From positions 186,001-250,000 of the forward strand of contig NZ_AKKU01000001.1 in the NCBI RefSeq assembly GCF_000272005.1: a DNA stretch of 64,000 nucleotides, written 5' to 3'. A program made the translations under genes and the position numbers. This document shows, in pieces, positions 22,282 to 34,189 of this stretch; position 1 is the first letter of the stretch; the number at the start of each line of letters is the position of its first letter. The stretch is from Alishewanella agri BL06. GTDB taxonomy: Bacteria; Pseudomonadota; Gammaproteobacteria; Enterobacterales; Alteromonadaceae. Below the pieces are notes generated by a model. That model did not search any database, was not told the DNA's origin, and saw nothing but the letters and a program-made list of their open reading frames with translations.

Positions 22282-22409
22282 GCTAGCCTCAAATTAAATT
22301 TATCGTAACCATAAAAAACTTTTGTTTTACGACAGGAATTTTGTTAACCATACTCCGCACAGTTTAAACAGGCTGGCTTGATATTCAACGACATGAGAGG
22401 AAAAAAGTG

Positions 22410-22757
22410 ATGCAGCAAAGTTTTGTCGCTAATCGTCGCTTTTTCGATGACCGGAATTTCCCGCGTGGTTTTACCCGGTCCGGGCGCTTTACCCTGGCAG
22501 AGGGCAATCTGCTGGAGAAACACGGTTTAGCAATGCAGGAACTGGAGCAGGGTGCGAGACAGCCAGCTAACGACGAAGAACAGCGCTTTGTGCTGGTGTG
22601 TCGTGGTGAGGCGGAAGCCACTTCAGTCTATGAAAAAACCTGGCTAAAGTATAAACAACGGCTGGCTGAGAAGCGTAAGTTCCACACAGTGTTTGGCAAA
22701 AAGCGTATCGCTGATGGTTCGGACGACTTTTCTTACGTCGAGACCGATGCCGATTAA
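22410..22757 (+). CDS. maoP: MaoP (DUF413), Ori macrodomain organisation protein
   Basis: A 115-residue protein with the DUF413 pattern: N-terminal NRRFFDDRNFPRGFTRSGRFTLAEGNLLEKHG, then FVLVCRGEAEATSVYEKTWLKYKQR and KFHTVFG. This follows E. coli MaoP/YifE. MaoP works with the maoS site next to it to organise the Ori macrodomain in enterobacteria. ATG 22410 was chosen (GAGAGG 9 bp upstream); a GTG one codon earlier is an equal choice. The divergent hdfR neighbour is conserved. Confidence 0.9.
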   Translation: MQQSFVANRRFFDDRNFPRGFTRSGRFTLAEGNLLEKHGLAMQELEQGARQPANDEEQRFVLVCRGEAEATSVYEKTWLKYKQRLAEKRKFHTVFGKKRIADGSDDFSYVETDAD

Positions 22758-22780: not shown

Positions 22781-22791
22781 ACGGCTGTAAC

Positions 22792-23062
22792 CTAGGGCGT
22801 GTTGACGTTTGCTGCTTGTTTTTGCAGCCGTTTGGCTGGTGTTTATACAAGGCAGAGCTTGTGATGTGTAGTTATTCTACATGAACAAGCGATAACGCAG
22901 TAGAAACGCCAGCCAAACGCTGCCCGAAGGGTTCGCGCTGGCGGCGCTTTGCTCTTTGTCACTCGTCACTTATTTAGAATAACTAAACTGCGCTCCTCGT
23001 TTCGCGATCAAAGCGCCGCCAGTGCGAACAAAATCTAAGCAGCAAGCGTCAACACGCCCTAG
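22792..23062. repeat. 271-bp double-foldback (MITE-like) element
   Basis: The termini are 24-bp inverted repeats with one mismatch: left 22792-22815 begins CTAGGGCGTGTTGACG and right 23039-23062 ends CGTCAACACGCCCTAG. Inside lie two more foldbacks. One has arms 22824-22844 and 22904-22923 (core GTTTGGCTGG/CCAGCCAAAC). The other has arms 22931-22951 and 23009-23029 (21 bp, one mismatch, core CTGGCGGCGCTTTG). Each is tipped by a small hairpin, TGTAG-TTATT-CTACA at 22867-22881 and TTTAG-AATAA-CTAAA at 22973-22987, which are near reverse complements of one another. There is no open frame of note. It sits between the maoP terminator and the end of a GGDEF-EAL gene. A lone tip copy is at 32772-32795. 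Confidence 0.85.
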
Positions 23063-23073
23063 ATTAACGAGTC

Positions 23074-25326
23074 CTAAAGCAACGCGACCTTAGGGCGTTG
23101 TTTCTTTTGCTCTACCAGAAAGGCGGCAAAGTCTTCCGCCGACAGCGGCTTGCTATAGTAGTAACCCTGAATAATTTCGCAGCGCAGCTTACGCAGTTGT
23201 TCCAGTTGTTCGTGGGTTTCCACGCCTTCAGCTACGACACTTAAGCTCAGGTTGTGGGCGATAGTGACAATGGTATCAACCATATTGCGACCACGGGCAC
23301 TGCTCATATCGTCAATAAAGGCTTTATCGATCTTCAGCGTATTCAGTGGGAATTGTTTCAGATAAGCCAGCGAGGAGTAACCGGTGCCAAAGTCGTCCAT
23401 CGCCAGGTGAATGCCGCGGGCACGCAGTTTTTTCATGGTATCAATCGCCAGTTTTGGCGACTGCATTACCGTACCCTCAGTAATTTCCAGCTCCAGATGA
23501 TAAGAAGGCAGATCGGTTTGCTGCAGAATATCGTCAATCTGGTCACACAAAAATGGCAGCATAAATTGCTTAGCCGACAGGTTCACCGCGACGCGGCCAT
23601 GGAATAATCCCTGAGCAATCCAGCGTTTTACATCGATACAGGCTTTACGTAATACCACGGTACCGATATCGACAATCTGGCCGGTTTCTTCGGCAACCGG
23701 AATAAAGCTGCCTGGGCTGACCAGGCCACCTTTTGGCGTGATAAAGCGCACCAGCGCTTCCATCCCGACCACCTTGCCGCTGAGCAGATCCATCTTCGGT
23801 TGATAAAACACCGTAAAATAATCTTCTTTCAGGCCATGACGGATCAGGTTTTCAATTTGCAGTCGTTTTACCGCCTGTTTGTTCATGGTGTCATTAAAAA
23901 ACAGATAGCGGTTGGCGCCTGAACTCTTGGCGTGGTACATGGCCGTATCAGCGTTACGTAGTAACGCCTGCGGATCCTTACCATCCTCCGGGAATAACAC
24001 TATACCAATACTGCTGGTAACGGCTAATTCGTGCTGATCAACGGCAAAAGGCTTATTGATTTGCTCCAGCAGGCTTTTCGCCAGACTGGTAATGGCGTGG
24101 ATATCGTTAGTATTGTCCAGTAACACCGCAAACTCATCACCACCCAGCCGGTACAGTTTCTGGCGGAACAATTTGTTGTTATGCAGGCGCTCGGCCAGTT
24201 TGCAAAGCAGGGCGTCACCCAGCTCGTGACCCAATGAGTCGTTAATCTTTTTAAAGTTATCCAGATCGAACACTAACAGTGCATGTTCGGTTTTGTCGGT
24301 TACCAGGCTGGCCAGTTTATTCATAAAGACCGCGCGGTTGGGCAAGCCGGTCAGGGTGTCACTGTTGGCCAGCCGGCTTAGCTCAGCTTCGCGTCTCTTG
24401 CGGTCAGAGATATCGGAAAATACTGCCACATACTGCGTAATAAAGCCTTGCTCGTCTTTGATCACGTCAAAGGTTAACTCTGCCTGGTAGTAATCGCCGT
24501 TGGTTTTCAGTTCCCGGATCTCACCACTCCAGCGCCCGTCTTTAACCAGTTTCTTTTCAATTTCTTGGATAAAGCGCGGCGGATACAACGAAAGCTGAAA
24601 GCGGCTTTGTAACACTTCATCGCGACTCTTGCCGGTGATGACGCTGAAGGCCGGGTTAACTTCGATAATATTGAATTTGGTATCACAGATCAGCACCGCA
24701 TCGGAAATGTTTTCCAGACAGCGGGCAAACAGTTGCATTCGTGCTTCAGCTTGCTTTAATTGGCTGATGTTTTTCAGGGTACCGGTCATCCGTTGCGCTT
24801 TACCGGTCTCGTTATATGAGACAACCTTGCCGCGGTCTAACACCCAGATATAGGTTTCATCCGCGGTTTTAACCCGGTAACTGGCTTCAAAAAACGGGCT
24901 GTTACCGGCCAGATGTTGCGATAGCGCGTGGCTGACCCGTTCCAGATCCTGAGGATGAATCAGCTGTTTATTCGGTGGGAAATCTTCAGTCTTTGGGGCT
25001 ATCGCCAGCGGCTCAAGCCAGGCACTGGAGCGATAAAGTTCGCCGGTTTCAATGTTCCAGTCCCAAAGTTCATCACCGCTGCCCCAAATCGATAAGCGTA
25101 AGCGTTCTTCGCTTTTCGCCAGCGCCTGATGGTAACGCCGCATCCGCCGCAAACTGAGTTGAGCTAATAGCAGTCCGGTAAGTGCCAACGCGAGTAAAAC
25201 GTGGAATAAATAAGGCTGTACAGCATCCCAGCTAAGGGCCGCTGCAGCGAGGGGCAAGAAGAATAACGTTGCTAGCGTTAGCCCCAAAAGTGTCAGGGTA
25301 AGAAAAGTAATTGTTTTATCGCGCAC
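23074..25326 (-). CDS. Membrane PAS-PAS-GGDEF-EAL protein
   Basis: A 750-residue protein. Two N-terminal membrane helices (about 8-30 and 38-58) are followed by two PAS domains (about 75-190 and 200-315; each with the PAC-type ending YNETGKAQRMTGTLKNIS and QGFITQYVAVFSDIS). A GGDEF domain comes next (about 325-480; YRLGGDEFAVLL, intact GGDEF, no RxxD inhibitory site at the usual place). The EAL domain (about 495-735) has EALVRF, NLSAKQF, ELEITEG, DDFGTGYSSL, KIDKAFI and AEGVET, so the phosphodiesterase residues look complete. It probably makes or breaks c-di-GMP in response to a small ligand or redox signal. Its stop lies 12 bp from the foldback element. Confidence 0.93.
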   Translation of the reverse strand: MRDKTITFLTLTLLGLTLATLFFLPLAAAALSWDAVQPYLFHVLLALALTGLLLAQLSLRRMRRYHQALAKSEERLRLSIWGSGDELWDWNIETGELYRSSAWLEPLAIAPKTEDFPPNKQLIHPQDLERVSHALSQHLAGNSPFFEASYRVKTADETYIWVLDRGKVVSYNETGKAQRMTGTLKNISQLKQAEARMQLFARCLENISDAVLICDTKFNIIEVNPAFSVITGKSRDEVLQSRFQLSLYPPRFIQEIEKKLVKDGRWSGEIRELKTNGDYYQAELTFDVIKDEQGFITQYVAVFSDISDRKRREAELSRLANSDTLTGLPNRAVFMNKLASLVTDKTEHALLVFDLDNFKKINDSLGHELGDALLCKLAERLHNNKLFRQKLYRLGGDEFAVLLDNTNDIHAITSLAKSLLEQINKPFAVDQHELAVTSSIGIVLFPEDGKDPQALLRNADTAMYHAKSSGANRYLFFNDTMNKQAVKRLQIENLIRHGLKEDYFTVFYQPKMDLLSGKVVGMEALVRFITPKGGLVSPGSFIPVAEETGQIVDIGTVVLRKACIDVKRWIAQGLFHGRVAVNLSAKQFMLPFLCDQIDDILQQTDLPSYHLELEITEGTVMQSPKLAIDTMKKLRARGIHLAMDDFGTGYSSLAYLKQFPLNTLKIDKAFIDDMSSARGRNMVDTIVTIAHNLSLSVVAEGVETHEQLEQLRKLRCEIIQGYYYSKPLSAEDFAAFLVEQKKQRPKVALL

Positions 25327-31607: not shown

Positions 31608-32795
31608 GTGTTAACACTTGCCACCAAGCCAGCCCTTGCGCTGGCTTATTTTGCTTATTTCGGCGTCTTAGGCCTGTTTGTGCCTTATTTCGGGCTGTTT
31701 TTGGATGGCCGCGGCTTAAGCTCGGCGCAAATTGGCTTATTGCTGGCGCTGGTCACGGCGACGCGGATCGTTGGCCCGGCGCTGTGGGGCACGCTGGCTG
31801 ATAAAACCGCCAGGCCGCTTAGCATTATGCGCTTTGGCGCCATTATCGCGATCCTGGCCTGGTGCAGCAGCTTTGTTGATGCCGGCTTTTGGCCCTTGCT
31901 GGCCGGTTTCGCGCTGTTTAGTTTTTTCTGGACTGCTATCTTACCGCAGCTCGAAGTCTGTACCTTCCATGCGCTGAACGATGATGCCGGTGCTTACAGC
32001 CGCATCCGCACCTCCGGCAGTGTCGGTTATATCATTCTGGTGCTGCTCGGCGGTTATTTATTTCAGCGTTTTGGCAGTGAGTTTATGCCGGCGACAGCGC
32101 TACTGTTTTTAGGCTTACTGCTACTGAGCTTATTTAAACTACCGCCGCTGCCTAAGTTGTCAGCCAGTCAACAGGTGCACTTATCCTGGCGTCAGTTATT
32201 CAAAAGTAAGGTACTGTGGCTCTTTATGGGCGCCGCCTTAATGTTGCAGATGAGCTTTGCGCCCTACTATGGTTTTTTTACACTATATTGCCGCGATCTG
32301 GGCTATAGCGGCACTGTTACCGGCTTGCTGATTGGCGTGGCGGTGGCGGCGGAGATCGTCGCCTTTTATTTTGCCGGCCGCATTTTGGGCCGTTTCAGGC
32401 TGGGGCATTTACTGGCTGCCTGTTATGGCTTAACCGCGCTGCGCTGGTTAATCGTTGCTTACCTTGGTGATCAGCCGCTGGTGCTGGCAGCCAGTATGCT
32501 GTTACATGCCGGTAGTTTTGCCATTGCTCACAGCGGTGCCATGCAGTTTATTCAGCAGTTTTTCCCCAAGGCGCAGCGTGGCCGCGGTCAGGCGTTTTAT
32601 GCCGGTATTATCTATGGCGGTGGCGGGGCTATCGGCGCCTATATTGCCGGTATCAGCTGGCGCGATGGGGCTGGCGCCAGTGCTACCTTTACGTTGGCAG
32701 CACTGGCAGCGGCAATAGCGATGCTATTGGCGCTAAGTTTACCGCGCACTATGCCGCGAGCGGATGATAAAGCCGCAAACATCAACACGCCCTAG
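31608..32795 (+). CDS. MFS transporter, HcaT/LacY-like (MFS_1-like)
   Basis: A 395-residue, 12-helix transporter beginning with a GTG. The N-terminal ALAYFAYFGVLGLFVPYFGLFLDGRGLSSAQIGLLLAL and LWGTLADK are typical of the 3-phenylpropionate transporter/MFS_1-like group. The substrate is not predictable. The last residues (AANINTP and the TAG stop) are encoded by a lone copy of the foldback element tip (32772-32795). The gene ends in the same CTAG as the convergent aldehyde dehydrogenase. It follows aroC by 46 bp. Confidence 0.85.
   Translation: MLTLATKPALALAYFAYFGVLGLFVPYFGLFLDGRGLSSAQIGLLLALVTATRIVGPALWGTLADKTARPLSIMRFGAIIAILAWCSSFVDAGFWPLLAGFALFSFFWTAILPQLEVCTFHALNDDAGAYSRIRTSGSVGYIILVLLGGYLFQRFGSEFMPATALLFLGLLLLSLFKLPPLPKLSASQQVHLSWRQLFKSKVLWLFMGAALMLQMSFAPYYGFFTLYCRDLGYSGTVTGLLIGVAVAAEIVAFYFAGRILGRFRLGHLLAACYGLTALRWLIVAYLGDQPLVLAASMLLHAGSFAIAHSGAMQFIQQFFPKAQRGRGQAFYAGIIYGGGGAIGAYIAGISWRDGAGASATFTLAALAAAIAMLLALSLPRTMPRADDKAANINTP
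32772..32795. repeat. Solo terminal repeat of the foldback element
   Basis: Matches the reverse complement of the left terminus of the 22792-23062 element at 22 of 24 positions (ending CAACACGCCCTAG). It covers the last 7 codons of the MFS gene and both overlapping stop codons. The rest of the element is absent. Confidence 0.75.
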
Positions 32796-34189
32796 CGTAT
32801 TAACCACTTAAGCAGTGCTTTAAACAGCGGCCGGTTAAAGGGCGGGTAAATCAGAATGCTGCTACTAAAGCGGCCTTTCTGGTGTACCGCCTTGGCGTGG
32901 GAAAAACGCCAAAAGCCCTCAGGGCCATGGTAGTTACCCAAACCTGATGGCCCGATGCCACCAAAGGGTAAGTCCTCCTGTGCCACATGCAGCAGCGTAT
33001 CGTTAATGCAAACGCCACCGGCATGGGTTTGGGTTAATACTCGCTGTTGCAACCGCTTATCTTCACTAAATAAGTACAGCGCCAGCGGCCTGGGTCTGGA
33101 TTTAATATAGTCAAGCGCCTGCTCAAAGCTGTCGTAGCCGATAATCGGCAACAAGGGACCGAAAATTTCCTGCTGTAAAATCTGACACTCCTCGGGCACA
33201 TCAACCAGCAAGGTTAGCGGTATCCGGCGCTGTTGTTGTTGCTGCTCGCTGACCATCACTGCACAGGGATAAGCGGTTGCGCCTTTAGAGAGAGCCTCGC
33301 TTAGCAGCTGCTGTAAGCGCTGATAATGCTGCGTATTGATCACCGCGCTGTAATCGGGGTTAGTCGCAAAATCAGGATAGAGCTTGGCAAAGTCGGCTTG
33401 CAGTTGGTTAATCAAAGCCGTGATCCGAGCCTTAGGCACTAACACATAATCGGGCGCGACACAGGTTTGGCCGGCATTGGCGGTTTTGCCAAATAGTAAG
33501 CGTTGGCTAAAATGCGCTAAGTCGGTATCCGCTGCCAGCAGCGCCGGGCTTTTACCGCCCAGCTCAAGCGTCACTGGGGTAAGATTGGCCGCCGCGGCCT
33601 GCATTACTTTGCGCCCGACGCCGGTAGAGCCGGTAAACAACAGATGATCAAAGGGTAGGGCGGCAAAATCGGCGGCAACCCCAGCATCGCCCTGAACCAC
33701 ACTAACACAGTCAGTTAAGCCCTCTGCAAGCATTTCAGCCAGCACCGCATTGGTTGCCGGAGTAAATTCCGACAGCTTCAGCATCACCTGATTACCGGCA
33801 GAGAGTGCCGCCATAAGCGGGCTAAGTGCCAGAAAAATGGGGTAATTCCACGGCACAATAATACCAACCACCCCTAACGGCTGCGCCAGCACAAAGTTTT
33901 TTGCCGGCGCAAAAGTATAGTGCACGGCACGGCGCTGCGGTTTTAGCCAGCCTTTAAGCTGTGACAACTGATATTTGATGCCCTGCAAACTGGGCGCAAC
34001 TTCCAACAGTTGCGTCTCAACCCTGCTGCGCTGGCCAAAATCGCTGGCCACGGCTTGTTGCAACGCGGTGTTGTATTGTTGCAGCAATTCGGCCAAACGC
34101 TGCAAGCGTTGCTTGCGTGTAGCAAGTGACGGATAGGGTTCGGCATTAAACTGCTGTTGATGCTGTTGAAACAGGCTTTCTATGCTCAT
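32792..34189 (-). CDS. Coniferyl-aldehyde-dehydrogenase-type ALDH
   Basis: A 465-residue aldehyde dehydrogenase. It has PWNYPIFLALSPLMAALSAGNQVMLKLSE (NAD region), FTGSTGVGRKVM, the general-base Glu in LELGGKSPALL, the nucleophile Cys in NAGQTCVAPDYVL, and the C-terminal FPFGGIGPSGLGNYHG-like segment (DLPFGGIGPSGLGNYHGPEGF). A hydrophobic C-terminal end (FNRPLFKALLKWLIR) resembles the membrane-near tail of the fatty/coniferyl aldehyde subgroup. It acts on long-chain or aromatic aldehydes; the exact substrate is unknown. It ends in the same CTAG as the MFS gene. Confidence 0.9.
   Translation of the reverse strand: MSIESLFQQHQQQFNAEPYPSLATRKQRLQRLAELLQQYNTALQQAVASDFGQRSRVETQLLEVAPSLQGIKYQLSQLKGWLKPQRRAVHYTFAPAKNFVLAQPLGVVGIIVPWNYPIFLALSPLMAALSAGNQVMLKLSEFTPATNAVLAEMLAEGLTDCVSVVQGDAGVAADFAALPFDHLLFTGSTGVGRKVMQAAAANLTPVTLELGGKSPALLAADTDLAHFSQRLLFGKTANAGQTCVAPDYVLVPKARITALINQLQADFAKLYPDFATNPDYSAVINTQHYQRLQQLLSEALSKGATAYPCAVMVSEQQQQQRRIPLTLLVDVPEECQILQQEIFGPLLPIIGYDSFEQALDYIKSRPRPLALYLFSEDKRLQQRVLTQTHAGGVCINDTLLHVAQEDLPFGGIGPSGLGNYHGPEGFWRFSHAKAVHQKGRFSSSILIYPPFNRPLFKALLKWLIR

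Follow-up and report, generated by a model that had tools for sequence, protein, structure and literature searches.

The 265-bp element at positions 22795-23059 of the analysed stretch of Alishewanella agri BL06 DNA (64,000 nucleotides, hereafter the window) is best explained, with a probability of about two in three, as a MITE of the IS5 type whose core has been selected as a folded single strand, probably as RNA of read-through 3' untranslated regions (3' UTRs), a function that we infer for the core. The element would accordingly be a non-autonomous DNA transposon of the IS5 family. Both the pairing and the internal-loop bases of its core persist phylum-wide, usually in elements of about 265 bp.

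Extent of the element, terminal repeats and target site

The boundaries of the element proper, a non-coding sequence on the + strand, have been established through comparison of its copies and of empty sites. Its outermost bases are GGG at 22795 and CCC at 23059. The first-pass annotation had delimited a foldback element of 271 bp (22792-23062); the element itself is upheld, and that span additionally takes in the target bases C, TA, TA and G. Repeat search identified the left terminal inverted repeat, GGGCGTGTTGACGTTTGCTGCTT, at 22795-22817 (+) and the right one, with one mismatch to the left, at 23037-23059 (-). Together with the flanks, the terminal arms reach 30 nt with 93% complementarity (22788-22817 and 23037-23066). 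Earlier these repeats had been given as 24 bp with one mismatch; the arms and the mismatch are found as described, and the element's own arms measure 23 bp.

On either side lies one unit of a 2-bp target duplication, the left TA at 22793-22794 and the right TA at 23060-23061, in the arrangement C/TA...TA/G, i.e. a TA duplication within CTAG. The same can be seen in a set of 89 paired-end elements, which includes a few probable chance pairs: (i) TA is present on both sides of 69 of them; (ii) C or T precedes the TA on 160 of 178 sides; (iii) an exact direct repeat of 3 bp or longer occurs in 0/89. The targets are YTAR/CTAG sites, with duplication of TA. No open reading frame (ORF) of at least 80 aa within the element is present in the ORF list, in line with the earlier observation that it has no coding frame, and the closest listed ORF ends are at 22757 and 23074.

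Internal architecture and predicted fold

The layout of the element is end, hairpin, CCCnnnGGG, inverted hairpin, end. Hairpin 1 (22824-22923, +), recognised by covariation and by the match of its covariance model, named R1, contains the internal loops CAAGGCAGAG and GATAACGCAG and the apical sequence GTAGTTATTCTAC at 22868-22880; the R1 match itself covers 22816-22935 (+). Hairpin 2 (22931-23029, -), with the apical sequence TTAGAATAACTAA at 22974-22986, is the reverse-complement homologue of hairpin 1, and R1 matches it on the - strand at 22919-23037 with 48.6 bits and an E-value of 6.7e-13. Between both long hairpins is located a small central hairpin, CCCGAAGGG, at 22923-22931, identified by alignment and covariation. 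Two long internal foldbacks, and TAG-loop-CTA hairpins nearly the reverse complement of each other, had already been read in the first pass; repeat search places the foldbacks at 22829-22848/22900-22919 and 22931-22954/23006-23029, and the TAG-loop-CTA hairpins are found at 22866-22882 and 22972-22988. The inverted pair is not restricted to the window copy: in 51 of 73 chosen loci the first R1 match is accompanied by an adjacent one in the opposite orientation (a separate sample comprised 100 loci). Since hairpin 2 is the inverted homologue of hairpin 1, whichever strand is read, the first hairpin from its 5' end is a sense hairpin, and any transcript entering from either side would meet that sense hairpin first.

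Kissing of the two apical loops was considered and rejected. The loops are complementary in the window copy, but Vibrio-type rows do not keep the pairing (alignment by eye), and complementarity would be expected in any case of two hairpins that are inverted copies of each other.

The predicted RNA fold has an energy of -147.6 kcal/mol against a mean of -83.8 for shuffled sequences (sd 4.86; z = -13.1), with none of 200 shuffles equal to it, and yields the three-stem, cloverleaf-like shape that had been described from the letters alone. The DNA fold is as exceptional as that of the RNA (z = -12.7). A rival explanation is that the hairpins work at the level of single-stranded or cruciform DNA, e.g. 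when exposed by replication, and aid excision, the pairing of the ends or binding of a host protein that recognises them, with RNA irrelevant. Such a role would be served by one sense hairpin per DNA strand, a symmetry that requires no transcription, and G.T and sheared G.A pairs form in DNA too. It is nevertheless rather unlikely, as the same core is kept with differing terminal repeats, hence presumably with different transposases, and a purely DNA role does not predict the bias of the copies to gene 3' ends.

Size variants of the element have also been recorded. Those of about 311-405 bp (L007, L008, L113, L115, L128, L145, L174, L206 and, in hairpin 2, L210) carry extra modules of about 47 bp, which add two hairpins of the types CUACAUGGAUGUAG and GCGNGAGCAGGACGC. 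Among the loci from L112 upward, the pattern of these hairpins was met in 8 distinct cases inside a paired-end MITE and in 1 outside. The GGA loops of the variant hairpins presumably resemble CsrA/RsmA sites.

Conservation and covariation of the core

Elements of the 264-bp size class, from Vibrio, Shewanella, Pseudoalteromonas, Endozoicomonas, Rheinheimera, Thalassotalea and others, have been aligned and show constant length with changing stems. For the alignment 49 of the 89 paired-end elements were taken by length, 2 were dropped, then rows at least 95% alike, and 28 were kept. Across these 28 sequences and 83 pairs, 95.3% of the cells are paired, with two-sided change in 49 pairs. The covariation score is 0.376 versus 0.143 for shuffled alignments (0/500) and at most 0.092 for slid controls. 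On the tree, 118 two-sided events were counted versus 2-5 in four slid controls, and the one-sided gains (40 to G.U and 24 to A.C) are fewer than the two-sided ones. The terminal stems covary as well, with 20 tree events. The internal loops, e.g. CAAGGC and AACGC, contain bases that rank with the most conserved columns. The proposal of a structured RNA or DNA site gains support from the covariation of the fold across genera and the recurrence of the hairpin across the phylum.

A strand signal has been sought in the proportion of G.U to A.C cells. After removal of rows at least 85% alike, 44 of 73 rows were kept for hairpin 1 and 45 of 57 for hairpin 2; 6 of the 57 second matches are other elements, and hairpin 2 was recounted on the 51 adjacent opposite-strand matches, of which 39 were kept. 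Read on its own strand, hairpin 1 has 113 G.U versus 29 A.C cells (44 rows), and hairpin 2 has 84 versus 23 (39 rows). Without one G.U pair present in most rows (29 of 44 and 30 of 45), the proportions are 84 to 28 (44 rows) and 74 to 25 (45 rows), respectively. Counted as tree events, the excess of G.U is weaker than in the cell counts: G.U:A.C is 66:36 for hairpin 1, with one of eight slid controls reaching 98:51, and 53:16 for hairpin 2, above all eight slid controls. When hairpin 2 is read on the + strand, in the RNAalifold structure of the 28 sequences, 47 G.U and 14 A.C cells are obtained, which taken alone speaks against the own-strand reading; 27 of these 47 come from one position that is unpaired in R1 and 18 from one apical pair, and by tree events the + strand gives 3:7. 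In the wide sample hairpin 2 thus gives a good strand signal, whereas that of hairpin 1 is no more than suggestive. All these data fit RNA and single-stranded DNA equally.

Distribution of the core and exchange of ends

Genome scans with R1, in which at most nine candidates were scored per genome, revealed matches in 54 of 369 class genomes, representing 46 of 272 genera (E up to 0.001), and in 64 of 398 phylum genomes (E up to 1e-5); both counts include the own genome, and the class and phylum sets share some genomes. Of the 64 matching phylum genomes, 28 lie outside the class and belong to four families, 25 of them to a single one. Of 42 R1 loci, 36 are bordered by inverted repeats that agree at 15 or more of 18 positions, compared with 1 of 80 control places taken from these loci, and 25 of those 36 span 262-267 bp; this count covers only the 42 loci from L252 upward, and the finder can overshoot (275 bp given for L001). 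The end types differ among R1 loci, with GGGCGTGTTGA, GGGCCTGTTAACACTA, GGGCGTGTCGTCATGAGA, TCCATGAATAAATCATCCC and others represented. As the terminal repeats differ between lineages around one core, the core outlasts any single set of ends. One genome of 4.5 Mb (G407, contigs C1-C19) has 76 + 74 exact TAGGGCCTGTTAACACT ends, which are of the second type named here and belong to the GGGCCTGTTAACACT-ended branch; they fall into at least three spacing classes of about 231, 269 and 296 bp, with the flanking TA counted in.

Palindromes can acquire covariation without function by template-switch self-correction. Two-sided changes outnumber one-sided ones, as self-correction predicts, and covariation alone is thus no proof of function. 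An ordinary MITE of an old and successful family, with a functionless core whose stems are kept paired in this manner, would also fit the covarying terminal stems and the existence of a copy without most of hairpin 2 (G000:C17:1589-1766, which matches 1-143 and 237-271 of the query). This explanation is unlikely, for it leaves three features unexplained: (i) the conserved unpaired bases of the internal loops; (ii) one G.U pair common to 29 of 44 rows of hairpin 1 and 30 of 45 rows of hairpin 2; (iii) the retention of the 262-267 bp length in loci with exchanged ends. Selection of the core as a folded single strand is preferred.

At gathering score, the search of Rfam gave no match anywhere in the window, and even at E up to 1 none falls on the element. 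In 15 divergent loci, four matches at E up to 0.5 were returned, all outside the core. A known Rfam family was ruled out by the lack of any match on the element.

Copy number and mobility

In silico analysis of the own genome revealed six full-length copies at 98-100% identity, the window copy included (the five others at 98-99%). Additionally, there are two 312-bp variants at 84%, a 239-bp copy with Ns (L009) and more pieces, several of them at contig ends. As contigs C2, C3, C7, C10, C11 and C21 of this genome begin or end inside the element, the true copy number probably exceeds the count. A 16-base end pattern with at most 2 mismatches gave 23 forward and 23 reverse matches versus 3 and 1 for the reversed control. 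Among the other relatives, 26 of 59 have a match to the element. In addition, two very short foldbacks with little beyond both terminal repeats, at G000:C15:361585-361630 and G000:C11:837-863, are possibly end-only remnants.

The window locus is empty in all 18 other genomes of the genus in which the flanks were found, and the joined flanks leave no room for a 265-bp insert; of the five alignments inspected, the cleanest are those of the pair of genomes nearest to the own one, with flanks at 87-89% identity. Genome G016 lacks a second copy, L002, at the orthologous place, where 10 bases lie between the flanks. At the same place the flank gap is about 685 bp in G003, and one flank was matched in G010. 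The first-pass annotation had proposed a MITE-type element, with the reservation that a single copy in all relatives and no empty sites would argue against it. The element has proved to be multicopy and 18/18 window sites empty; together with the TA duplication and a short non-coding sequence bordered by terminal inverted repeats, these results agree with a MITE, and the mobility of the element is well supported. A fixed, non-mobile structured RNA gene or host regulatory site, to which the strong conserved fold would be suited, is most improbable in view of the multiple copies, the private insertion, the TA duplication and the Rfam results given above, and as a host RNA gene it is refuted at the window locus by the empty sites.

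Carriage by phages was considered, and no match was found in 50,697 phage records. Plasmid records with a match number 15 (Pseudoalteromonas 9, Vibrio 4 and Catenovulum 2), and 13 of the 15 replicons are larger than 600 kb.

Candidate transposase partner

The earlier remark that no transposase lies nearby agrees with the lack of any match to the partner transposase at E up to 1e-20 within the window; the nearest match, G000:C1:162727-163479 on contig C1 of the own genome, is about 45 kb from the element. A search for a transposase gene with matching terminal repeats, which had been recommended, yielded a candidate. The own genome contains three 879-bp elements with an IS5-family transposase gene, scoring over the cut-off of NF033580. 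Their ends, GGGCTTGTTGATCTTTCG and GGGCCTGTTGATCTTTGC, are similar and not identical to the MITE ends, and they likewise lie at TA targets. The transposase genes of these three elements, relatives at 63-64% identity, have frames free of stops.

The paired-end scan of loci further revealed elements of 848-885 bp that have the same paired ends as the MITE and come from Psychromonas, Vibrionales, Alteromonas, Agaribacter and others, and the frames were checked in those of Psychromonas and Agaribacter. The Psychromonas element (L176) is an 882-bp IS which shares its GGGCGTGTTGATCTTTC ends with the MITE and encodes a 253-aa DDE transposase; this protein contains the Pfam domains DUF4096 and DDE_Tnp_1 and matches NCBIfam transpos_IS5_3 (NF033580) with an E-value of 5.8e-82. 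In the Agaribacter candidate (L190) the transposase frame is broken. These findings suggest that the IS5-family transposase of the resident 879-bp IS, or a relative of it, would supply movement of the MITE in trans.

Within the 369 class genomes, 54 contain the core, 43 have an IS5_3 transposase match and 11 have both, versus 6.3 expected, which is a weak association. Genome G407 is not among the 43, and among the places listed in it there is no forward-reverse pair of GGGCCTGTTAACACT ends about 1 kb apart that could represent an IS partner. An origin of the MITE as an internal deletion derivative of the IS was rejected, as the IS loci gave no sign of the core within the IS: over 23 loci with a known or suspected IS, R1 gave one match, of 9.7 bits and E 1.8, outside the IS. 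The MITE interior is no remnant of that gene.

Genomic position and stop codons

The window copy lies between two convergent ORFs. The upstream neighbour (22407-22757, +; 116 aa), which we take to resemble MaoP/YifE, has its stop 38 bp from the element, and the neighbour on the other side (23074-25326, -; 750 aa), presumably GGDEF/EAL-like, has its stop 15 bp from it. Positions were counted for 76 of the 89 paired-end elements, a few of which represent one insertion recorded twice (L127/L225 and L143/L229 share flanks, and L141 is counted twice). By a crude ORF test, 1 of the 76 is inside an ORF. The neighbours of the 71 elements with one on both sides are codirectional in 36 cases, convergent in 20 and divergent in 15. 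Hairpin 1 is oriented like the gene at 22 of the codirectional places and opposite to it at 14, without a strong orientation preference.

Flanks facing a gene 3' end are within 50 bp of it in 52 of 76 cases versus 420 of 1331 other intergenic YTAR sites in the same loci, an odds ratio of 4.7. This enrichment of the copies at 3' ends, shortly behind stop codons, may be due to survivorship. An open frame of at least 100 codons terminates at the junction TAG itself on 13 of 152 element sides versus 22 of 1486 CTAG sides and 52 of 16,710 YTAR sides, and in L034 and L038 both neighbours end in the junction TAG. The CTAG target, the TA duplication and the leading G of the element rebuild TAG on both sides, so that a gene need not be harmed by an insertion at its TAG stop.

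A solo MITE terminus is also present in the window at 32769-32795, with a match to the 13-bp pattern, with one mismatch, at 32780-32792. It forms the end of the ORF 31608-32795 (+), supplying the C-terminus KAANINTP and the stop, and the convergent ORF 32792-34189 (-) stops at the same CTAG.

According to the preferred explanation, the hairpin would be kept as a folded single strand, most likely as RNA at the 3' ends of read-through mRNAs. There it would decide what becomes of the mRNA end, by nuclease block or entry or by protein binding, in either orientation of insertion. A broader reading, held tentatively and judged doubtful, is that of a phylum-wide superfamily of mobile elements built on one RNA domain with varied IS5-type ends, i.e. 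an orientation-independent, portable 3'-UTR module spread by transposition.

Relation to known elements and significance

The IS427 group of the IS5 family has GGGC.TGTTGA-type ends and a TA duplication, as does the MITE; the resident IS is of 879 bp, and the assignment to this group is by ends, length and direct repeat (DR) and is not tree-based. A listing of IS427-group elements for Paracoccus gives 832-865 bp and a DR of 2 bp, in one of them 4 (PMC3281130). Unlike the IS of this group, the MITE lacks a transposase gene, and the search of the IS loci did not find its core.

The bcr1 repeats of the Bacillus cereus group are described as interspersed, with characteristics of mobile elements and a conserved structure (PMC2267715). 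Compared by description only, they are likewise an interspersed, structured mobile repeat, of another host group. We know of no inverted pair of the same hairpin in bcr1. ERIC and Correia (NEMIS) elements are presented as foldback MITEs found in transcripts; Correia RNA is cut by RNase III at the terminal inverted repeats, and ERIC at gene 3' ends alters transcript levels (PMC10969869). The cleavage of Correia RNA and the 3'-end effects of ERIC are precedents for the proposed RNA role. Both differ from the window element in ends, lengths and internal sequence. Repeats of Borrelia are reported to show compensatory stem changes and to be sited just behind or across stop codons, a placement cited there for other MITEs too (PMC2674063). 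They differ in being single stem-loops of 34-60 nt, on plasmids and without IS5-type ends. REPs are given as 20-40 bp (PMC3733652). They are intergenic hairpins likewise, whereas the window element is 265 bp long with terminal repeats and a TA duplication; identity with a REP palindrome was rejected on account of this length and these repeats. In the open literature, including queries with the end sequences, no description of the element was recognised; ISfinder, most subscription journals and preprints were outside this scope and may catalogue it.

In this MITE the conserved part consists of two structured hairpins in inverted arrangement, and no Rfam family covers it. Bacterial MITEs are usually viewed as IS derivatives defined by their ends; here the interior is conserved, the ends vary by lineage across the phylum, and the symmetric design presents a sense hairpin from either direction. 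The family would give annotation an RNA/MITE family missing from Rfam. If the core works as DNA, a large group of transposons would have a requirement in cis that has gone unrecognised; if it works as RNA, transposition would have been supplying many genes with one and the same RNA module at their 3' ends.
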